Below are positions 13,317 to 35,575 of a stretch of 40,899 nt of DNA, in pieces. The notes under the pieces were generated by a model. That model made no database searches and was not told the DNA's origin. It saw only the letters and a list, made by a program, of their open reading frames with translations. The stretch comes from Pseudomonadota bacterium (GTDB taxonomy: Bacteria; CALINM01), in the NCBI GenBank assembly GCA_026415985.1, contig JAOAGA010000005.1:1-40899 (forward strand), given 5' to 3'. Within the stretch, counting starts at the first letter, position 1. The number at the start of each line of letters is the position of its first letter. A program made the translations under genes and the position numbers.

Positions 13317-14174
13317 CTAATTTATATAATATACCAAACTCTTTCTAACACCATCTCTCATTATATCAAGTTCTACTTTATCAAGCTCTTTTAGCAGATT
13401 AAATATCTTAATACCATCATTAGGTGATGTTAACTCAATACCATTGGCACGCAAGATTACGTCTCCATTCTTTAACCCAATACTATCATAAAAGCCATTA
13501 GGCTTAACCTCCCTGACTACAAATCCCTGCTGTTTCCCGTCAACAATATTTGGCAATAACCTCGCATCTGTAAGAATCTCTCTTGGCTCTTCAAGAAACC
13601 TTTTTATCAGATCTCTGCTAAAGGTTTGCCCCTGCCCCGGTGCCTGTTGAGTTTGAGAACTCAAGTTAGGTGGATTACCTGACGATGTTTTTTTATCTTC
13701 CAAAACCGCTCCTTCTAAAGGAACCTTAAACCCTCTGCCCCCCTGAGAAATATAGACATAATCTTTTGTCACCATACTAAGTTTTCCTGTATTAAAAACA
13801 TCATCTCCTAACTTAAAAAGGATTTGTTTTCCTTCTTTATTTTCAATAAAGGCATAACCAGGAAAAAGTGTAATAACTCCTTTAAGCTTTAAACCTGTTG
13901 AATCAACCGCTACAGACTGTTCTGCTTTTTTCTCTATAACGGAAAAAGTAGCACCTTTTATAGAAAATATGTTTTTATCTACGACTAAGGCATAATCATT
14001 TATTGTTTTTGAAGTATTTTTTTGGGGCTCCTGCTTTTTTTGACTCTCAGGTAGTGTCTCTTTTAAAGTAGCTAATTTTATGATATTACCAAGATAATAG
14101 GACAAGAATAAAATAACTGTTATAAATCCTATTATGTCTATTACCTTTGTTTTGTTTATCTTTACCATTTCCAT
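13317..14174 (-). CDS. gspC: Type II secretion protein GspC with PDZ domain
   Basis: A 285-residue inner-membrane protein that connects the platform to GspD. It has one N-terminal membrane segment (about residues 12-33), a linker, the homology region (about 60-145: DYALVVDKNIFSI, LKGVITLFPGYAFIENKEGKQILFKLGDDV as its core) that binds the secretin N0 domain, a Gln/Pro-rich linker (about 165-185) and a C-terminal PDZ domain (about 200-282: GFVVREVKPNGFYDSIGLKN, GDVILRANG). The start overlaps the upstream heme-protein gene by 13 bases; an alternative ATG at 14168 is equally possible. No separate promoter is seen, so gspC is probably coupled to the upstream redox genes. Confidence 0.93.
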   Translation of the reverse strand: MEMVKINKTKVIDIIGFITVILFLSYYLGNIIKLATLKETLPESQKKQEPQKNTSKTINDYALVVDKNIFSIKGATFSVIEKKAEQSVAVDSTGLKLKGVITLFPGYAFIENKEGKQILFKLGDDVFNTGKLSMVTKDYVYISQGGRGFKVPLEGAVLEDKKTSSGNPPNLSSQTQQAPGQGQTFSRDLIKRFLEEPREILTDARLLPNIVDGKQQGFVVREVKPNGFYDSIGLKNGDVILRANGIELTSPNDGIKIFNLLKELDKVELDIMRDGVRKSLVYYIN

Positions 14175-15022
14175 AGAGTTATTAAAAAGATTATTATAAA
14201 CACAATAACAAGATTTGTATAGGCAAGAAAGTAAAAAACCCTTATAATCTTATCCTTTTCAACTTTGCTCTGGAAGGTAAAATCTACTTTTTTAAATCTT
14301 TCTAAAACATCTTCTCCATGAGGGGCAAGCTTTAAAACCCTGGTAAGATCTTCTCCGGCAAAATGTCTGCCCATATGAACACCCATCGGCCATAGCTTAC
14401 TGTTAGTTACATCATAAACCTTACCATTATAGGCAATATAGGCTTGCCTACCCTCCTTACCATCGTAATGACCAAGCCCTGCATTTTTTTCTCTGTTTAT
14501 CTTGCTTCTCATTTTTGGCCCCAAAAAGAGCGTTACAAAGATGGCAGATGAGACCATAATCAGGTAGAAGAAAATCTTTAAAGATAAGATTATTCCATAC
14601 CTGTTATCAAAGAAATCATAAAAACTATCTATTTTGAAAAAGGTAAGTATAGTCCCTGTAATAGCCATTACAAAAATAGATGTCCAGCCAAGCAAAAGTT
14701 CTCCTCTCGGCAAGCCACCCGCAGCATAGCTTGGTTTAAGTATTAAATGGACATATAAGATTGTCCCAAACCAGGTTATAGCAAAGAAGAGATGAATAAA
14801 ATAAGTTATAAATCTTATTATTCTTTTGGCAGGAGTTAATCCCTTTAACTCAACAAGAAACTTTTCTCCTGCTCTGGTTAGATCTTTACCTTTAGATATA
14901 TCTTTATGACAGTAACTGCAATCTTTACCAGTTTTTTCAGCTAATAACTCCGTTGCATACAGATTCTTCACAGACAGAGCAAATAGCAATAAGAATAAAA
15001 AAAGAACTCCCTTTCTTTTCAT
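14162..15022 (-). CDS. Membrane protein with c-heme site, CopD-like core and cytochrome b5-like domain
   Basis: A 286-residue fusion. A signal peptide (cut near residue 23, LYA/T) precedes a single c-type heme site CSYCH at 35-39. Membrane segments follow at about 71-94, 109-129 and 143-167, with CopD/DUF-like character (HLFFAITWFGTILYVHLIL). Residues 190-246 match a cytochrome b5-like heme/steroid-binding domain (GRQAYIAYNGKVYDVTNSKLW; GRHFAGEDLTRVL; LAPHGEDVLERF) with candidate ligands H216, H220 and H235, and a fourth segment lies at 262-284. The strongly basic loop at 170-180 puts the b5 domain on the cytoplasmic side, opposite the c-heme. It lies 2 bases after the DUF362 gene and overlaps gspC. 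Likely a transmembrane electron-transfer protein; partners unknown. Confidence 0.75.
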   Translation of the reverse strand: MKRKGVLFLFLLLFALSVKNLYATELLAEKTGKDCSYCHKDISKGKDLTRAGEKFLVELKGLTPAKRIIRFITYFIHLFFAITWFGTILYVHLILKPSYAAGGLPRGELLLGWTSIFVMAITGTILTFFKIDSFYDFFDNRYGIILSLKIFFYLIMVSSAIFVTLFLGPKMRSKINREKNAGLGHYDGKEGRQAYIAYNGKVYDVTNSKLWPMGVHMGRHFAGEDLTRVLKLAPHGEDVLERFKKVDFTFQSKVEKDKIIRVFYFLAYTNLVIVFIIIFLITLWKW

Positions 15023-15024
15023 AG

Positions 15025-16131
15025 CTAATCTATGCTTAGGAGTTCATAATCAATATTTCCCAAACCAATTTTCTGAGCATAATCAAGCTGAACGGTCCAA
15101 TCAATTTCTGGATAAACACCCCTGAACTTATCCTCATTTTTATTAAATCCGCTTTTTAACGCCGAATTGTTATGTCCCAACTCTTGATTGACCAAATCAA
15201 CGCTTGCCTTATCTATAGCTACCGGATCAGTGGATGCTAAAATCCCTATATCTCTTGTAATAGGATAATCATTGTGGCCATAGCAATCACAGGCTGGACT
15301 AATCTGAGTAAGAAAATTTAAATAAACAGCCTTTTTGTCTTTCTGAGCACCGAAGGCATACTCAACCATCTTCTTTTGAAGTATCGGAACTTGTTCATTC
15401 CAGTTTATAACAATTGCTCCTTTCGGACACACAAGAATACACTCCGCACATCCAACACAGGTTTTTTCATTAATCTGAGCCTTCTTGTCTACCATTGTAA
15501 TTGCATTATGAGCACAGTTTTTGACACAAAGCCCGCAACCTATACAGTTTTTCCTTTTAATAGCAGGCGATATATTTGAATGCTGAGCGAGTTTTCCTTC
15601 TCTGCTTGCACAACCCATTCCCAAATTTTTTAAGGCACCCCCAAAACCGGTCAACTCATGGCATTTAAAATGTGACATAACGACTAACCCTTCTGCTCTT
15701 GCTATTTCCGCACCAATTGATACAGTTTTGAAAATTTCAAGCCCCACCTCAATCTTCCTGGCGCTTCCGCCAGTCAACCCGTCAGCAATGATTATCGGCG
15801 CATTAACAACAGAATAATCAAAACCATTTGTTATAGCAGTTTCAATATGACTTACCGAGTCTGCCCTTGTTCCTCTGTAAAGTGTATTACAATCGGTCAC
15901 GAAAGGTTTCGTTTTCAGTTTCTTTAACTCATCCACAACAATCCTTACAAAATTAGGTCTGATATAAGACAAATTTCCTTTCTCACCAAAATGAATTTTT
16001 ACAGCTATTAGCTCCTGCTCTTTGAAAATGTGCCCAATGGACAGTTTGTCAAGTAAAATTGAAACCTTATCAAGGAGATTTCTTCCGATTTTAGTCCTTA
16101 AATTAGCAAAATAAACGGTTGATTTTCCCAT
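15025..16131 (-). CDS. DUF362 protein with two 4Fe-4S ferredoxin motifs
   Basis: A 368-residue cytoplasmic iron-sulfur protein. The DUF362 domain occupies most of the chain (VKIHFGEKGNLSYIRPNFV near 44-62; VMSHFKCHELTGFGGALKNL near 151-170; ILASTDPVAIDKASVDL later). A bacterial ferredoxin module is inserted in the middle, with cysteines 196, 199, 202, 206 and 225, 228, 231, 235, enough for two [4Fe-4S] clusters. The biochemical role of DUF362 is not established. The start at 16131 has AGGAGGAG upstream. Neighbours: a phosphatase 15 bases upstream and the heme fusion protein 2 bases downstream, so an electron-transfer role with the latter is plausible but inferred. Confidence 0.9.
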   Translation of the reverse strand: MGKSTVYFANLRTKIGRNLLDKVSILLDKLSIGHIFKEQELIAVKIHFGEKGNLSYIRPNFVRIVVDELKKLKTKPFVTDCNTLYRGTRADSVSHIETAITNGFDYSVVNAPIIIADGLTGGSARKIEVGLEIFKTVSIGAEIARAEGLVVMSHFKCHELTGFGGALKNLGMGCASREGKLAQHSNISPAIKRKNCIGCGLCVKNCAHNAITMVDKKAQINEKTCVGCAECILVCPKGAIVINWNEQVPILQKKMVEYAFGAQKDKKAVYLNFLTQISPACDCYGHNDYPITRDIGILASTDPVAIDKASVDLVNQELGHNNSALKSGFNKNEDKFRGVYPEIDWTVQLDYAQKIGLGNIDYELLSID

Positions 16132-16146
16132 TGTTATACTCCTCCT

Positions 16147-16776
16147 TCAGACAGAAAAAATTTTTTCATCCGGTAACATTATGGCAGATAAAGTTCCACC
16201 ATATATTGCACCGGTATCAATTCCAATTTTATATTTATCATAGTATGGCATAAAGGTTTTCGAAGGTGTATGCCCAAAAATAATCTTTTTACCGAAATTA
16301 TAATCACTGAAGATAAAATCACCTCTGATCCAGAAGAGATCATCCTCACTTTGATTATCCAAAGATACACCCGGTTTTAACCCACCGTGGACAAAGATGT
16401 AACTTTCCGTTTCGTAATAAGGTAAGAGATTTTTGAAAAAATCCAGGTGATCCTCAGGTATAAAAAGTTCACCATTAGATGTGTAGTCTTTTACTGTTTC
16501 CCTTCCACCATTATAAAAGAAAAGCTCAATGTTTCTTCCCTGGAGATAATCAAGAAACATAACCTCGTGATTACCCTTTAAAAAAACAGTTAATCCGTCT
16601 CTCCTGTTTTTCTTCAGTTGTATCAGATAATCAATAACCTTTTTGTTTTCATCGCCACGGTCAATATAATCGCCAAGAAAGATAAGAAGATCTTCATCTT
16701 CAAGTGGAATCTTATTAATCAGTTCCATCAATTTCTCACAGAGACCATGAATATCACCTACCGCAAATATTCTCAT
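16147..16776 (-). CDS. PPP-family serine/threonine protein phosphatase (PrpA-like)
   Basis: A 209-residue calcineurin-like phosphoesterase with all PPP motifs: GDIHG at 7-11, GDYIDRG near 35-41, GNHE near 68-71, VHGG, and the later metal-binding HT in FGHTPS. Length and motif set match bacterial PrpA/PrpE-type protein phosphatases or ApaH-like hydrolases; the exact substrate cannot be told. I start at the ATG at 16776 because it begins directly at the first strand MRIFAVGDIHG; an in-frame TTG at 16812 would add 12 residues and overlaps the promoter. No ribosome site is visible, and the -10 box ends only 7 bases before the ATG, so the mRNA may be leaderless. First gene of the long minus-strand run into gsp. 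Confidence 0.9.
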   Translation of the reverse strand: MRIFAVGDIHGLCEKLMELINKIPLEDEDLLIFLGDYIDRGDENKKVIDYLIQLKKNRRDGLTVFLKGNHEVMFLDYLQGRNIELFFYNGGRETVKDYTSNGELFIPEDHLDFFKNLLPYYETESYIFVHGGLKPGVSLDNQSEDDLFWIRGDFIFSDYNFGKKIIFGHTPSKTFMPYYDKYKIGIDTGAIYGGTLSAIMLPDEKIFSV

Positions 16777-16783
16777 AGGAAAA

Positions 16784-16812
16784 AATTTAACATATCTATA
16801 GCTTAAGGTCAA
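16784..16812 (-). promoter_or_regulatory. Promoter of the phosphatase gene (possibly leaderless)
   Basis: Minus strand: TTGACC at 16812-16807, 17-base spacer, TAAATT at 16789-16784. The predicted start falls at about 16777, next to the ATG at 16776, which has no Shine-Dalgarno. Confidence 0.45.
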
Positions 16813-16898: not shown

Positions 16899-19800
16899 AT
16901 GTATAAACCTGTCATAAAAATATTTTTGAATCTGTTTAAAGCTCTTGATATTTTTTGGGTTATTTTTATAACTCAAGGATGGTGCTTTTCCGATTTTTCT
17001 ATCTCTCCTACCCTAAATCATAAAGATTGGATACTTTCTGTAGCAATCTCACCAAATGGCAGATTTGTTGCATCAGCTGGAAGAGACAATGTGATTAAAA
17101 TTTGGGATATCTATACCAAAGACGAGATTGAGACATTATATGGTCATTCCGACTGGGTCGGTTCAGTAGTGTTCTCTCCTGATGGTAAGTATATTCTGTC
17201 AGGTGGCTGGGACAATATAATCAGACTTTGGGATTTCGAAACAGGTATCGAGGTTAAAAAATTTGATAACATGGAGGGGACAACCTGCGTTTCTTTTTCT
17301 CCCGACGGGAGATATTTTCTTTCAACAGGTTATGGTAGCTTAAAAATATGGAATATAGCAGAAAATCGAATAGAAAAAATACTGGAAGGGCATCAAGGTT
17401 TTGTCCAATCGGCAAGATTTTCAAAAGATGGCAGATTTGTTGTATCTGGTGGATTCGACGGGATGGTTAAGCTTTGGGACATATTTTCAGAAAAAGAGTT
17501 ACATACCTTTATAGGTCATATCAATTTTGTTCATTCTGTTGATTTTTCACCTGATGGTAAAAAGATAATCTCTTCGGGATACGATAAAACTGTCAAGGTT
17601 TGGGATCTTCAGAACAAAAGATTTATCACTTCATTACGGGGCCACTCAGGATGGGTGTTATCTGCAATATATTCAGAAGATGGTAAATATATAATTTCCG
17701 GTGATACTGATGGCTATATCTATATATGGGATAGCGAAACCTATAAAGCTATCAGGAAAATATATTCTCATAAAAACTGGATTAGCTCTTTAACAATTTC
17801 ATCTGACAACCTTTACTTCCTGTCAGGTAGTTGTGATAGGACCGTAAAAATATGGGACATAAAAAATGGTAATAAAATCCTAACTTTAGGGGAAAAGAAT
17901 ATTGCCACTATAGTTACGGTTTCAAACAATGAGAGATTAATGGCTTGCAATGATGAAAACAATTTCATAAATATCTGGGACATCCGCAAGGGGAAAAAAA
18001 TAGCAACTTTAGCGGGACATAACCATCCGATTACTTCTCTGGTTTTTACACCTGATAACAACTATCTTCTTTCAGGAAGTATTGAAAATTTAATAAAAGT
18101 TTGGGACATAAAAACAGGGGATTTGATTAAATTAATTCCCGGTAACTCAACCGGTATAACATCTATGACCTTCTCGTTAGATGGGGAATACTTATTAACA
18201 AGTGGATATGACGGAATAGTTACTCTCTGGGACTGGAAGGATTATAAAATAATTCAACAATTTTATATTTCAGACAACAACTTTATTTTAGCAAGCTTTT
18301 CTAAAGATAACAGATATATTGCTACTGGTGGATCGGAAGGACTAATTAGTGTTTGGGATGTTAAAAAAAACACCTTTGTTTTATCTGAAAAAATACATAA
18401 AAAAGAAATTTTAAGTATTGCTTTTTCTCCCAAAGATAACTTAATAGTTACAGGTGGCAAAGATAATTTATTATATTTATTTGATTTTATAAATAATAAA
18501 AAAAAAATATTTGAAGGACACAGAGATACCGTTATAGGGGTTTCTTTTACGTCCGATGGTAACAATATTGTCTCTATATCTAAAGATAAAACTGTAAAGG
18601 TGTGGGACACTTACTCTGGGAAATTATTAAAAAATATATTAACTAATTTGGATCTGTCTTCTCTCTACTTAACGAAAAATACTTTACTTATCGGGGGCAA
18701 GAAAAATATTATAAAGATTTATAATCTCGAGCCCTTTGCAGAACTTGCTACTATCTACAATCTTAAAAACAAAGAATGGTTATTTATTACTTCCAAAGGT
18801 TTTTATAATACATCCTGTAACGGAGATAGTTTCTTCTTTATTGAAAATAAAGATAAAAAATATTTTTTAAATCAGTTTCATTCTGGTTTTTGTAGCAGTA
18901 AGATTGTAAAAGATATATTAAAGGGTGAAAAATTTTCAGATTATAATTCTTATGAACTATCTTTAAATCCCTTAGATATCACCCCGCCTGAAATAAATAT
19001 AAATTTAGATAATGAAAAACTGGCAATAGATTTTGAATGTAAAAAGAATTTTTTAAAAGCAGTTAAAGTATTTGAAGATGGTCATATAATTCATGAACAC
19101 AAATTAGAGCATGTATCTAAACATTCTGATATTATAGAACAAAAAAACTTATTAGATATTAATGGAAAAGAGAAAATAATTGAAATATTTGCATCTAACG
19201 ATTACTCAGAAACATCAGATGTAAGATTGGTTTACTCAAAGGATAAACAATTAAAAAGTCACCAAAACCTATGGTTAATATCTATGGGAATATCCTATTT
19301 AAATGATAAATCATTGAATAAACTAAGTTTTCCTGTAAGAGACGCATTGGCAATCTCAAAATTATTTAAAAATTCAGGAAAGGAGATTTTTAATAAAGTT
19401 TATTCTTTTACAATAAATGATATTACCAACAAAAACCCCATAAAAATCCAACTAAAAGAAACTATTGAGAAAATAAATGAACAAATTTCTAAGGAAGATT
19501 TGTTTATTTTATATTTATCGGGATATAGTACCACCGATGACTACGGAAATATCTATTTAGTTGTTCCCGATGAGAAGAATCAGAGAAACTTCGAAAAAAA
19601 CCCCAAAGTTATAAATCTTATAGAAACTTTAAAAACACTTAAATTCAATTCTAAAAAAATATTCATATTAGATTTATACGATATTAGTTATGACGGATTA
19701 AATCAACCCGATTATGAAGGTTTGTTTAAATACGCTAAAAATAATAACTTTGCAATTTTTATCTCAACAAAAAACTTTCAAGCTGTCAATGAGGCTCAAA

Positions 19801-20000
19801 AATTAGGACACAGTTTTTTGTCTTACACAATTATCGAAGGTTTGTTAAAGAAAGCAGATAAAAACAATAAAGAAAGTATTTCTTTAAGAGATCTTGAAAT
19901 TTTTTTAAATTATAGAGTTGCTGATATATCAGGATACTATGAAAATATTTGTACTTTTATCCCTAAAAGCTATCGCAAAATCATTATCTCAAAAGATTAG
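16899..20000 (+). CDS. Exported 14-repeat WD40 protein with degenerate caspase-like domain
   Basis: A 1033-residue protein. An N-terminal hydrophobic stretch (about residues 6-30) suggests export or membrane anchoring. Residues about 40-610 hold 14 WD40 repeats, each ending in a WD-type motif (IKIWDI, IRLWDF, VKLWDI, VKVWDL, ... IKIYNL), enough for two seven-bladed propellers. A linker with EWLFITSKGFYNTSCNGDSF matches the segment that follows propellers in bacterial WD40-caspase proteins, then an Ig-like part (PPEININLD). Residues about 787-1033 align with peptidase C14: NLWLISMGISYL, VRDALAISKLF, EDLFILYLSGYS, FILDLYDIS. The catalytic His of SGHG is Tyr876 and the Cys of LD-x-C is Tyr927, so it is predicted to be a pseudoprotease. 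No clear ribosome site; AT-richer than the neighbours. Confidence 0.85.
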   Translation: MYKPVIKIFLNLFKALDIFWVIFITQGWCFSDFSISPTLNHKDWILSVAISPNGRFVASAGRDNVIKIWDIYTKDEIETLYGHSDWVGSVVFSPDGKYILSGGWDNIIRLWDFETGIEVKKFDNMEGTTCVSFSPDGRYFLSTGYGSLKIWNIAENRIEKILEGHQGFVQSARFSKDGRFVVSGGFDGMVKLWDIFSEKELHTFIGHINFVHSVDFSPDGKKIISSGYDKTVKVWDLQNKRFITSLRGHSGWVLSAIYSEDGKYIISGDTDGYIYIWDSETYKAIRKIYSHKNWISSLTISSDNLYFLSGSCDRTVKIWDIKNGNKILTLGEKNIATIVTVSNNERLMACNDENNFINIWDIRKGKKIATLAGHNHPITSLVFTPDNNYLLSGSIENLIKVWDIKTGDLIKLIPGNSTGITSMTFSLDGEYLLTSGYDGIVTLWDWKDYKIIQQFYISDNNFILASFSKDNRYIATGGSEGLISVWDVKKNTFVLSEKIHKKEILSIAFSPKDNLIVTGGKDNLLYLFDFINNKKKIFEGHRDTVIGVSFTSDGNNIVSISKDKTVKVWDTYSGKLLKNILTNLDLSSLYLTKNTLLIGGKKNIIKIYNLEPFAELATIYNLKNKEWLFITSKGFYNTSCNGDSFFFIENKDKKYFLNQFHSGFCSSKIVKDILKGEKFSDYNSYELSLNPLDITPPEININLDNEKLAIDFECKKNFLKAVKVFEDGHIIHEHKLEHVSKHSDIIEQKNLLDINGKEKIIEIFASNDYSETSDVRLVYSKDKQLKSHQNLWLISMGISYLNDKSLNKLSFPVRDALAISKLFKNSGKEIFNKVYSFTINDITNKNPIKIQLKETIEKINEQISKEDLFILYLSGYSTTDDYGNIYLVVPDEKNQRNFEKNPKVINLIETLKTLKFNSKKIFILDLYDISYDGLNQPDYEGLFKYAKNNNFAIFISTKNFQAVNEAQKLGHSFLSYTIIEGLLKKADKNNKESISLRDLEIFLNYRVADISGYYENICTFIPKSYRKIIISKD

Positions 20001-33892: not shown

Positions 33893-35575
33893 TCAGAAAT
33901 TTTTCAGTTCTTCAATCTTTTTCTTGAGCGAATCGATATCTTCAGGCTCAAACTTCAGTGCCTCTTCATAAAACCTTTTCGCTTCCTTATGTTTATTCAT
34001 CTTTAACAATATATCTCCCATATGTTCTAAAACAGTAGGATCTTCTTTTAACTTATCATAGGACTTTAAGATAAGCTCATAGGCTTTGCTATAATTTCCC
34101 ACCCAGTAATAGTACCAGGCAAGACTGTCAAGTATATAGGGATCTTCCGGTTTAATTTCCAATGCCCTTTTTATATATTCATAGGCTCTGTCCAATTCCT
34201 TCCCCTTTTCCACAAGACTATATCCTACAAAGTTTAGTGCATCGGAATTATTAGGTTCTGACTTTAAGATATTTTCAATCAAATTTATACCTTCATCGAA
34301 TCTATTTAATTTGATAAAAATTTCTGCTTTAACAAATATAACTCTGTGTCCCTTCATCTCTCCCATCTTTATTAAATCATCAAGAATTGTCAGTGCGTCG
34401 TTATATTTTTTTCTTCCCTTCAGATATAAAGCCAGAAAATATCCCGCATCAGTATCTTTTTCTAAATCCCACAACTGCCTTAAAACATCATAGGCTTCAT
34501 CAAATCTTTTTGTTTTTTCATAGGCAATGGCTAAATTAAGTTTAGCTGATTTGTAATATTCACTATCGGTAATATCTTTAAGATAATATATGGTCTTTTC
34601 CCAGTCTTTGATCTCCTTATAATATATACCTGCCATGTATCTTGCTTTATCACTTTTTTTGTCTAAAGAGAGAATTTTATCTATATATTTTTTTGCCATC
34701 TCAAACCTTTCACCGTCTATGGCAACAAACCCCGCCTTGTATAGTAAGTCAAGATTGTCGGGAAACTGATTAATAAGAACTTCTAAATGGTTAAGTGATT
34801 TATCGTAGTCGTTTTCTCCAAGATAGAGCATGGCAAGTCTTTCCCTTACCTTGGGATAATCAGGATTTCTCTGAACAAACTTTTCTAATACCTCAATGGA
34901 CTTCTTTCTATCGCCTAACTTATCATAAATATTATCAAGATTAATTAATATCTCATCTTCTTCTCTCTCTGAAAAGGCCCTTTCATATTGCTTTGCAGCT
35001 TCTTCGTTCATATTCAGTTCTTCGTAAACTCTTGCCAAACCAATCATACCAAAAAAACTATTGGGAAACTTTGCAATAAGCCTTTCAAGAACTTCTCTTG
35101 CCTTTTCCAACTCCTTGTTTTCAATATAAATATTGGCGAGAAATACATAATAGTTTTCTCTATCTACATCTCTTTTTACTATCTTTTCAAGAACAGGAAG
35201 GGCCCCTTTTTTATCACCTTTTATAATATAGATATTGGCGAGTGTGATTAGGGCATTAATATCATTTGGTTTTTTTTTGAGAACCCTGCCTATTGTTTCA
35301 AAGGCCTCATCAAACCTCTTTGTAAAGGTATATATGGAAGTCAGATCAGTTAACGCTTCATCGTAATCGGGAACTTTCTCAAGAAACTCCTTAACATATC
35401 TTTCAGCGGAGCTTAAATCACCCGAAGACATTGCAGAGTTATAGGCCATATATAAAGCAAGTTCATCGGATGTTAACATCATAGGCGTGATATTATTATT
35501 TTCAACGGTTTTAAAAGTTTGACATGATGTAAGAATTAACAATAATAAAAAAACAAAAAGTAAATTTTTTTTCAT
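33893..35575 (-). CDS. TPR-repeat lipoprotein
   Basis: A 560-residue lipoprotein: MKKNLLFVFLLLLILTSCQTF has the lipobox LTSC. The rest is an almost continuous array of about 13-15 tetratricopeptide repeats (for example DEAFETIGRVLKKKPNDINAL, KAREVLERLIAKFPNSFFG, DRAYEYIKRALEIKPEDPY split as usual at W/L-G-Y-A-F-P positions). Such proteins scaffold envelope assemblies; similar ones are common in Geobacter-like genomes. The start overlaps the mobA stop by 4 bases. Specific function not identifiable. Confidence 0.9.
   Translation of the reverse strand: MKKNLLFVFLLLLILTSCQTFKTVENNNITPMMLTSDELALYMAYNSAMSSGDLSSAERYVKEFLEKVPDYDEALTDLTSIYTFTKRFDEAFETIGRVLKKKPNDINALITLANIYIIKGDKKGALPVLEKIVKRDVDRENYYVFLANIYIENKELEKAREVLERLIAKFPNSFFGMIGLARVYEELNMNEEAAKQYERAFSEREEDEILINLDNIYDKLGDRKKSIEVLEKFVQRNPDYPKVRERLAMLYLGENDYDKSLNHLEVLINQFPDNLDLLYKAGFVAIDGERFEMAKKYIDKILSLDKKSDKARYMAGIYYKEIKDWEKTIYYLKDITDSEYYKSAKLNLAIAYEKTKRFDEAYDVLRQLWDLEKDTDAGYFLALYLKGRKKYNDALTILDDLIKMGEMKGHRVIFVKAEIFIKLNRFDEGINLIENILKSEPNNSDALNFVGYSLVEKGKELDRAYEYIKRALEIKPEDPYILDSLAWYYYWVGNYSKAYELILKSYDKLKEDPTVLEHMGDILLKMNKHKEAKRFYEEALKFEPEDIDSLKKKIEELKNF

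Follow-up and report, generated by a model that had tools for sequence, protein, structure and literature searches.

What does a single bacterial membrane protein do when it carries a c-type heme motif, a CopD-like core and a cytochrome b5-like domain in one chain? One gene of contig JAOAGA010000005.1 from Pseudomonadota bacterium CALINM01 (assembly GCA_026415985.1), analysed here as one stretch of 40,899 nucleotides (the window), raises this question. The gene is a complete open reading frame of 286 aa (P0001) at 14162-15022 on the minus strand, and the plus-strand frame there contains many stops. An AlphaFold2 model of the protein, made with 48 family members, has a mean pLDDT of 84.3 and contains four long helices (residues 64-94, 106-130, 141-179 and 258-283), with the b5 domain sitting between the last two. 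Hydrophobic segments are present in the hydropathy profile, and the four membrane segments predicted by the first-pass annotation find their match in the four long helices of the model. From the N-terminus, the protein begins with a signal-peptide-like segment (residues 1-23; 14954..15022, minus strand, as are all features of this gene), read from hydropathy and a model helix at residues 2-16 and with a guessed cleavage site. This segment is followed by CSYCH, a c-type heme attachment motif read from the sequence (residues 35-39; 14906..14920), and by membrane helix 1 (14741..14833), which is placed by conservation, hydropathy and the model and carries H77 and H92. Helix 2 (14633..14707; Pfam and model) and helix 3 with the linker that it runs into (14486..14602; Pfam, alignment and model; carrying K149) are CopD-like. 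The basic loop noted earlier at residues 170-180 was found as a basic stretch at residues 170-179, behind helix 3. The cytochrome b5 domain (residues 183-246; 14285..14476), defined by Pfam, structure matches and the alignment, holds H216, H220 and H235, and helix 4 (14174..14251), placed by the model and by relatives, lies near the C-terminus. The order of c-heme site, CopD-like core and b5 domain that had been proposed for this protein is thus borne out by the motif, Pfam and the model.

Among 40 open reading frames of the window tested for CXXCH (40 of the 48 listed, the remaining 8 overlapping these), only the 286-aa protein carries the motif. Its N-terminus suggests export, and three matches to the cytochrome c assembly family PF01578 were found in its own genome (G000). 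The protein is therefore classed as a putative c-type cytochrome, with covalent heme attachment predicted from the motif. For the second site, Pfam Cyt-b5 matched residues 186-242 above its cut-off (E 6e-7). When compared with solved structures, the b5 region of the single protein matched 6nzx (E 5e-16) and 6vz6 (E 8.5e-16), the family profile matched the same two more strongly (E 9.6e-24 and 5.4e-24, respectively), and Foldseek superposed the model on them with rmsd values of 0.9 and 0.8 A over 64 columns. These two structures, from Hadesarchaea (6nzx) and Methanococcoides burtonii (6vz6), are ones that we take to be members of the wider cytb5M class. The first-pass annotation had made its reading depend on the b5 region matching heme-binding members, and such a match was obtained, as one of the two best structures, 6NZX, is entered as a b-type cytochrome in a passage of a review. 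A passage of PMC10093951 names MAPR-like prokaryotic b5 proteins cytb5MY and gives a tyrosine as the heme ligand; the candidate ligands in the present protein are the histidines H216, H220 and H235. By fold and best matches, the domain belongs to the archaeal/MAPR-like kind of the cytochrome b5 superfamily, with putative heme binding. Other arrangements of this b5 kind were also seen. It is joined to DUF2231, another membrane domain, in L118:411-1085 (minus strand), which many 240-300 aa frames with only a b5 match, from the profile search in the phylum of L038, may resemble. Four tandem copies make up a 341-aa protein with a signal-like start in L121:879-1904 (plus strand), and a stand-alone 150-aa domain followed by a single C-terminal hydrophobic helix is encoded by L120:606-1058 (plus strand).

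The combination is no triple fusion peculiar to this genome; it defines a widespread protein family. All three genomes of its own phylum carry the gene. In a first draw of 60 genomes, the gene occurred only in three of its own family, and in four others the match was confined to the b5 domain. A scan of named genomes with two peptide patterns ([YL]AEKTGKD and [LT]WFGTILY) found 60 loci with relatives, in Geomonas, Geobacter, Geotalea, Citrifermentans and Desulfuromonas as well as in Nitrospirota, Calditrichia, Glassbacteria, Nitrospinota and Anaerolineales; both Geobacteraceae and further deltaproteobacterial groups are represented. A profile search, counting full-length members with the centre included and fragments excluded, found the family in 56 of 245 genomes in the phylum of L053, in 31 of 247 in the phylum of L038, and in one of 400 (L068 itself) in the phylum of L068. 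For 16 of the 31 members in the phylum of L038, picked for long frames or lower scores, the surroundings were fetched; one of the remaining 15 (G062, the same as L038) was already among the 60 loci. Across 77 aligned rows, which include these 16 and the 60 loci and contain some near copies, CXXCH, H77, K149, H216, H220 and H235 are kept in every row and H92 in 76, with Q in L068. Because the loci were picked by pattern, some of the conservation seen within the two pattern stretches follows from the selection itself; neither the CXXCH nor the named histidines nor K149 falls in these stretches, and all of them, together with H92, are kept in 16/16 of the profile-found members. Given this spread and the CXXCH in all 77 rows, the combination is not due to chance. 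Family statistics used 48 of 61 rows, leaving out L026 (internal stop), L030 (N at the CXXCH) and 11 near copies, all of which are still counted within the 61 and 77 rows, and the tree used 74 rows, leaving out L026, L030 and one duplicate. Matches in five named plasmid records were partial, each spanning 22-36% of the query at the b5 domain and its surroundings. No dedicated model for the family was found in NCBIfam beyond the weak CopD match, and the architecture was not described in the open-access literature searched; the passages obtained from PMC10093951, PMC8840924, PMC12093952, PMC7096707 and PMC13186404 hold no description of it.

The clearest indication of function comes from relatives in which the gene is longer. 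In seven relatives from two phyla, namely L068 (one Anaerolineales MAG) and L095-L100 (six genomes in the phylum of G062), a domain with eight CXXCH motifs follows helix 4 in frame within a single open reading frame. The fused proteins have 726-794 aa, and those of L095-L100 contain nine CXXCH each in all. The C-terminal domain matched PF13447 in L068 (E 2.9e-26) and L095 (E 9.8e-36), as well as structure 4qo5 (E 1.6e-44 and 2.4e-45, respectively), and the HAO structure 1fgj was also matched by L068; eight CXXCH together with PF13447 mark these two domains as HAO/IhOCC-type. From their sequences, L095-L100 and L068 would be self-contained membrane octaheme systems, with the c-heme motif, CopD core, b5 domain and HAO-like domain in one gene. 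Separate PF13447 genes adjoin the gene in three further loci: in L102, the PF13447 gene follows in the same orientation, beginning 27 bases downstream, and by appearance has its own signal peptide, while in L109 and in L032 (Geobacteraceae) it is convergent, and the L032 case alone could be chance. In the tree, the seven fused forms form one clade with L102, L109 and L108 (support 100/100), although the placement of L068 within it is weak (89/32, long branch); over the 6.5 kb read for L108, no multiheme gene turned up. Three changes of the fused label are required on the tree, which allows either a single fusion followed by splits or more than one fusion. The 286-aa protein itself falls outside this clade and has one CXXCH and no PF13447 match; no PF13447 match was found in its genome (84% complete), and one was found in G001. 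Multiheme frames at or near the gene occur in three of the 60 loci: in L068 this is the fused protein itself, in L032 they directly adjoin the gene, and in L050 one frame with 20 CXXCH lies about 4 kb off. Beside the gene in Geotalea sp. SG265 (L032:8910-16068, minus strand), a crude gene caller gave a run of four multiheme frames with 8, 4, 10 and 12 CXXCH.

The fusions also bear on topology. Octaheme c cytochromes mature in the periplasm, so an octaheme domain fused behind helix 4 puts the C-terminus on the periplasmic side and the segment preceding helix 4 on the cytoplasmic one. With an exported N-terminus, four helices and a periplasmic C-terminus, the b5 domain would then be cytoplasmic. 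It is thus strongly implied that the c-heme site lies outside the membrane and the b5 site inside, as the first-pass annotation had supposed in giving each membrane side one redox site; the contrary case that it had raised, with both heme sites on the same side, disagrees with the fusion-based topology. The distribution of charges is mixed: 4.9 K+R in the linker between helix 3 and the b5 domain versus 2.2 in the loop between helices 2 and 3 agrees weakly with an inside b5 domain, but there are 2.4 before helix 1, presumed outside, and only 2.5 in the inner loop between helices 1 and 2.

We propose, with a probability of roughly 0.6, that the 286-aa protein is an inner-membrane electron carrier that links a cytoplasmic redox partner to periplasmic multiheme cytochromes. 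The exported N-terminal segment would hold one c-type heme in the periplasm, the four helices would span the membrane in a CopD/cytochrome-b-like arrangement, and the second heme would sit in the cytoplasm, in the b5 domain that separates helix 3 from helix 4. Electrons would pass from a cytoplasmic donor to the b5 heme, through the core to the c-heme, and on to periplasmic multiheme cytochromes, which in one clade would be an octaheme HAO/IhOCC-type cytochrome, fused or encoded alongside. The architecture, its conservation, the fusions and the resemblance between the b5 domain and solved b5 structures were observed by computation. Heme at both sites is probable from the motif and the fold; electrons would flow outward, and multiheme cytochromes would be the acceptors. 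Since relatives are joined to an eight-heme cytochrome, the protein probably passes electrons across the membrane; the transmembrane conduit envisaged from the first reading has therefore become likelier through the octaheme fusions and family conservation, as a likely role. Passage across the bilayer could proceed via one or more b-hemes at H77/H92 or via a quinone site. In cytochrome b, heme ligands within one helix are spaced like H77 and H92, which are 15 residues apart. No conserved partner histidines exist for these two, however, and the bilayer might instead be bridged with the help of K149, of a homodimer or of a quinone. A more specific form of the proposal, which we put forward tentatively and consider doubtful as it stands, is a quinone-independent wire in one chain, running from a cytoplasmic donor (here the adjacent DUF362 protein) to the MAPR-like b5 heme, then to the H77/H92 heme or hemes in the CopD-type bundle, perhaps across a homodimer, and then to the c-heme in the periplasm, from which octaheme cytochromes of the nitrite/hydroxylamine type would be supplied.

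The membrane core allows another explanation. The CopD-like core might bind quinol and send electrons outward to the c-heme and the octaheme partner, with the b5 domain only tuning, sensing or returning electrons; the protein would then act like a quinol dehydrogenase of the NrfH/NapC type with a different fold. A core that lacks an evident chain of bis-histidine hemes fits such a role, and a bis-histidine di-heme like that of b561 or cytochrome b is not evident here because the conserved membrane histidines, H77 and H92, are confined to helix 1. A b561-type di-heme, with histidine pairs on two helices, was therefore rejected. In VIA-align, the best alignments of the model after the b5 structures were to the designed two-heme bundle 4D2 (Z 12.1) and another two-heme bundle (11.8), followed by cytochrome b6 (9.9-11.2), a bd oxidase subunit (11.0) and b561 (8.1), but by the program's own guidance, helical-bundle values below about 13 may reflect a mere common arrangement, and among the same alignments, ion-channel domains reach 7-9. 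The likeness to di-heme bundles is thus suggestive only. Cytochrome b6 handles quinol, which speaks for this explanation; however, no quinone site could be assigned, and a b5 domain with three histidines kept in every row would be left unexplained. We consider a quinol-linked role unlikely.

Kinship to CopD raises the question of copper. If the protein were a metal-handling CopD relative, its CXXCH and histidines would bind copper instead of heme. Against the CopD models, each of the 48 family members gives a match, with E at most 0.1 in Pfam (best 9.4e-12) and at most 0.01 in NCBIfam; Cyt-b5 is matched by 47 of the 48 at E up to 0.1 and DUF2214 by eight (best 3.9e-4). H77, W84, G86 and K149, compared by eye, are common to eight of eight CopD-type proteins (8 loci out of 15 fetched). 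For the window protein itself, PF05425 at residues 111-179 (E 1.6e-6) gave 28.8 bits against a cut-off of 32.1, and the CopD equivalog NF033808 gave 30.5 bits against 195; judged by these scores, it misses the curated cut-offs and is a more distant relative of CopD. All eight CopD-type proteins in the same comparison lack H92, located where the first helix ends on the cytoplasmic side; this histidine is therefore a mark of the b5-bearing family. No copper genes were found among the 10 window proteins scanned, and electron transfer is indicated by the octaheme fusion as well as by the b5 domain, so that copper handling is improbable. A suspected kinship to HemJ was dropped, as no paper was found for it and no such family appeared among the Pfam matches of the 48 members.

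The gene neighbourhood was examined for partners of the proposed electron carrier. Two bases upstream lies the gene of a DUF362 protein with two 4Fe-4S motifs (15025..16131, minus strand; E 2.2e-50), a candidate cytoplasmic partner, and upstream of it that of a calcineurin-like phosphoesterase (16147..16812, minus strand), which is also beside DUF362 in L011 and L012 and which we do not think is part of the mechanism. Conservation of the neighbourhood with both DUF362 and gspC had been suggested as a check. The DUF362 part stood within the phylum, as DUF362 is still adjacent in two relatives (74% and 72% identity) and thus in the phylum's three genomes only; tblastn at 1e-6 gave no match for it in the other 58 loci, so DUF362 is proposed as a possible electron donor locally, for this phylum. 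The gspC part did not stand: GspC (13317..14174, minus strand), followed by GspD, E and F, lies downstream here, and the two nearest relatives have SurE in its place. In the 60 loci, the largest neighbour clusters, which by reading hold sensor-kinase, peptidase and transporter-like sequences, cover 14, 12 and 12 loci, mostly Geomonas/Geobacter relatives; the gene caller was crude and put the family itself in one cluster for only 52 of the 60 loci. As neighbourhoods vary between lineages, they were set aside as a guide to function. In the window, two further genes drew attention. A 1033-aa WD40-repeat protein (16899-20000, plus strand) has a weak caspase-like C-terminal match to NF047832 (E 0.015), with one HEAT-ARM repeat-type match in PADLOC, and a TPR protein (33893-35575, minus strand), with PrsT and MamA model matches below cut-offs, lies near an Opp/Nik-type ABC transporter.

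Neighbourhoods that vary between lineages would suit a heme or redox sensor or chaperone, whose two sites would respond to heme or oxidant and work through DUF362 or other partners without respiratory current: outside the octaheme clade no neighbour is conserved across lineages, and b5 domains of this kind occur in other architectures too. No signalling domain was found in the protein, however, and the octaheme fusions argue for current, which makes a sensor role hard to credit. A place in the type II secretion system (T2SS) or in a route for secreted cytochromes, as linked to this gene at first and as its 13-base overlap and apparent co-transcription with gspC might suggest, deserves almost no credence, since the nearest two relatives carry SurE instead of GspC, GspC and GspD gave no tblastn match at 1e-6 in the 60 loci (several of them short), and a GspE-like match was found in only four (L016, L017, L021 and L058; 39% identical, on the other strand and more than 2 kb off), leaving no conserved linkage with gsp genes.

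A central problem of Geobacter-type respiration is the route by which electrons get from the inner membrane to periplasmic and extracellular acceptors. The electron carrier proposed here would bear on it as a conserved membrane protein of many Geobacteraceae and Nitrospirota that probably has a redox module at both membrane faces and has a direct fusion link to HAO-family octaheme cytochromes. If the quinone-independent wire were true, CopD-type bundles would be a heme-carrying, cytochrome-b-like fold, and Geobacteraceae and Nitrospirota would possess an unrecognised inner-membrane electron exit. Because named Geomonas and Geobacter strains carry the gene, deletion and spectroscopy are feasible.

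Each module resembles a known system and departs from it. With the archaeal/MAPR-like cytochromes b5 (6NZX, 6VZ6; eukaryotic kin PGRMC1), the b5 domain shares 55% identity in the structural alignment and the HxxxH...PH positions, but those chains are 78-residue single domains, while here b5 makes up a membrane protein together with two other modules. The HAO/IhOCC octaheme domain (PF13447; 1FGJ, 4QO5), fused in seven relatives and adjacent in three, is missing from the window protein, and none was found in its genome. In the model, the protein's four helices are laid out as in the di-heme bundles of cytochromes b561 and b6, a layout that may simply be common, but its family keeps conserved membrane histidines in helix 1 only. 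Membrane helices 1-3, with H77, W84, G86 and K149, are shared with CopD/PcoD (PF05425, NF033808), to which the window protein adds c-heme and b5 modules and H92, with scores under the curated cut-offs. The membrane multiheme cytochromes NapC, NrfH and HaoC feed electrons to periplasmic nitrite/hydroxylamine-type multiheme cytochromes, and a similar job would be done by the 286-aa protein; whereas they are defined by a single membrane helix and four or more CXXCH, it has four helices, one CXXCH rather than four, and a predicted cytoplasmic heme domain.
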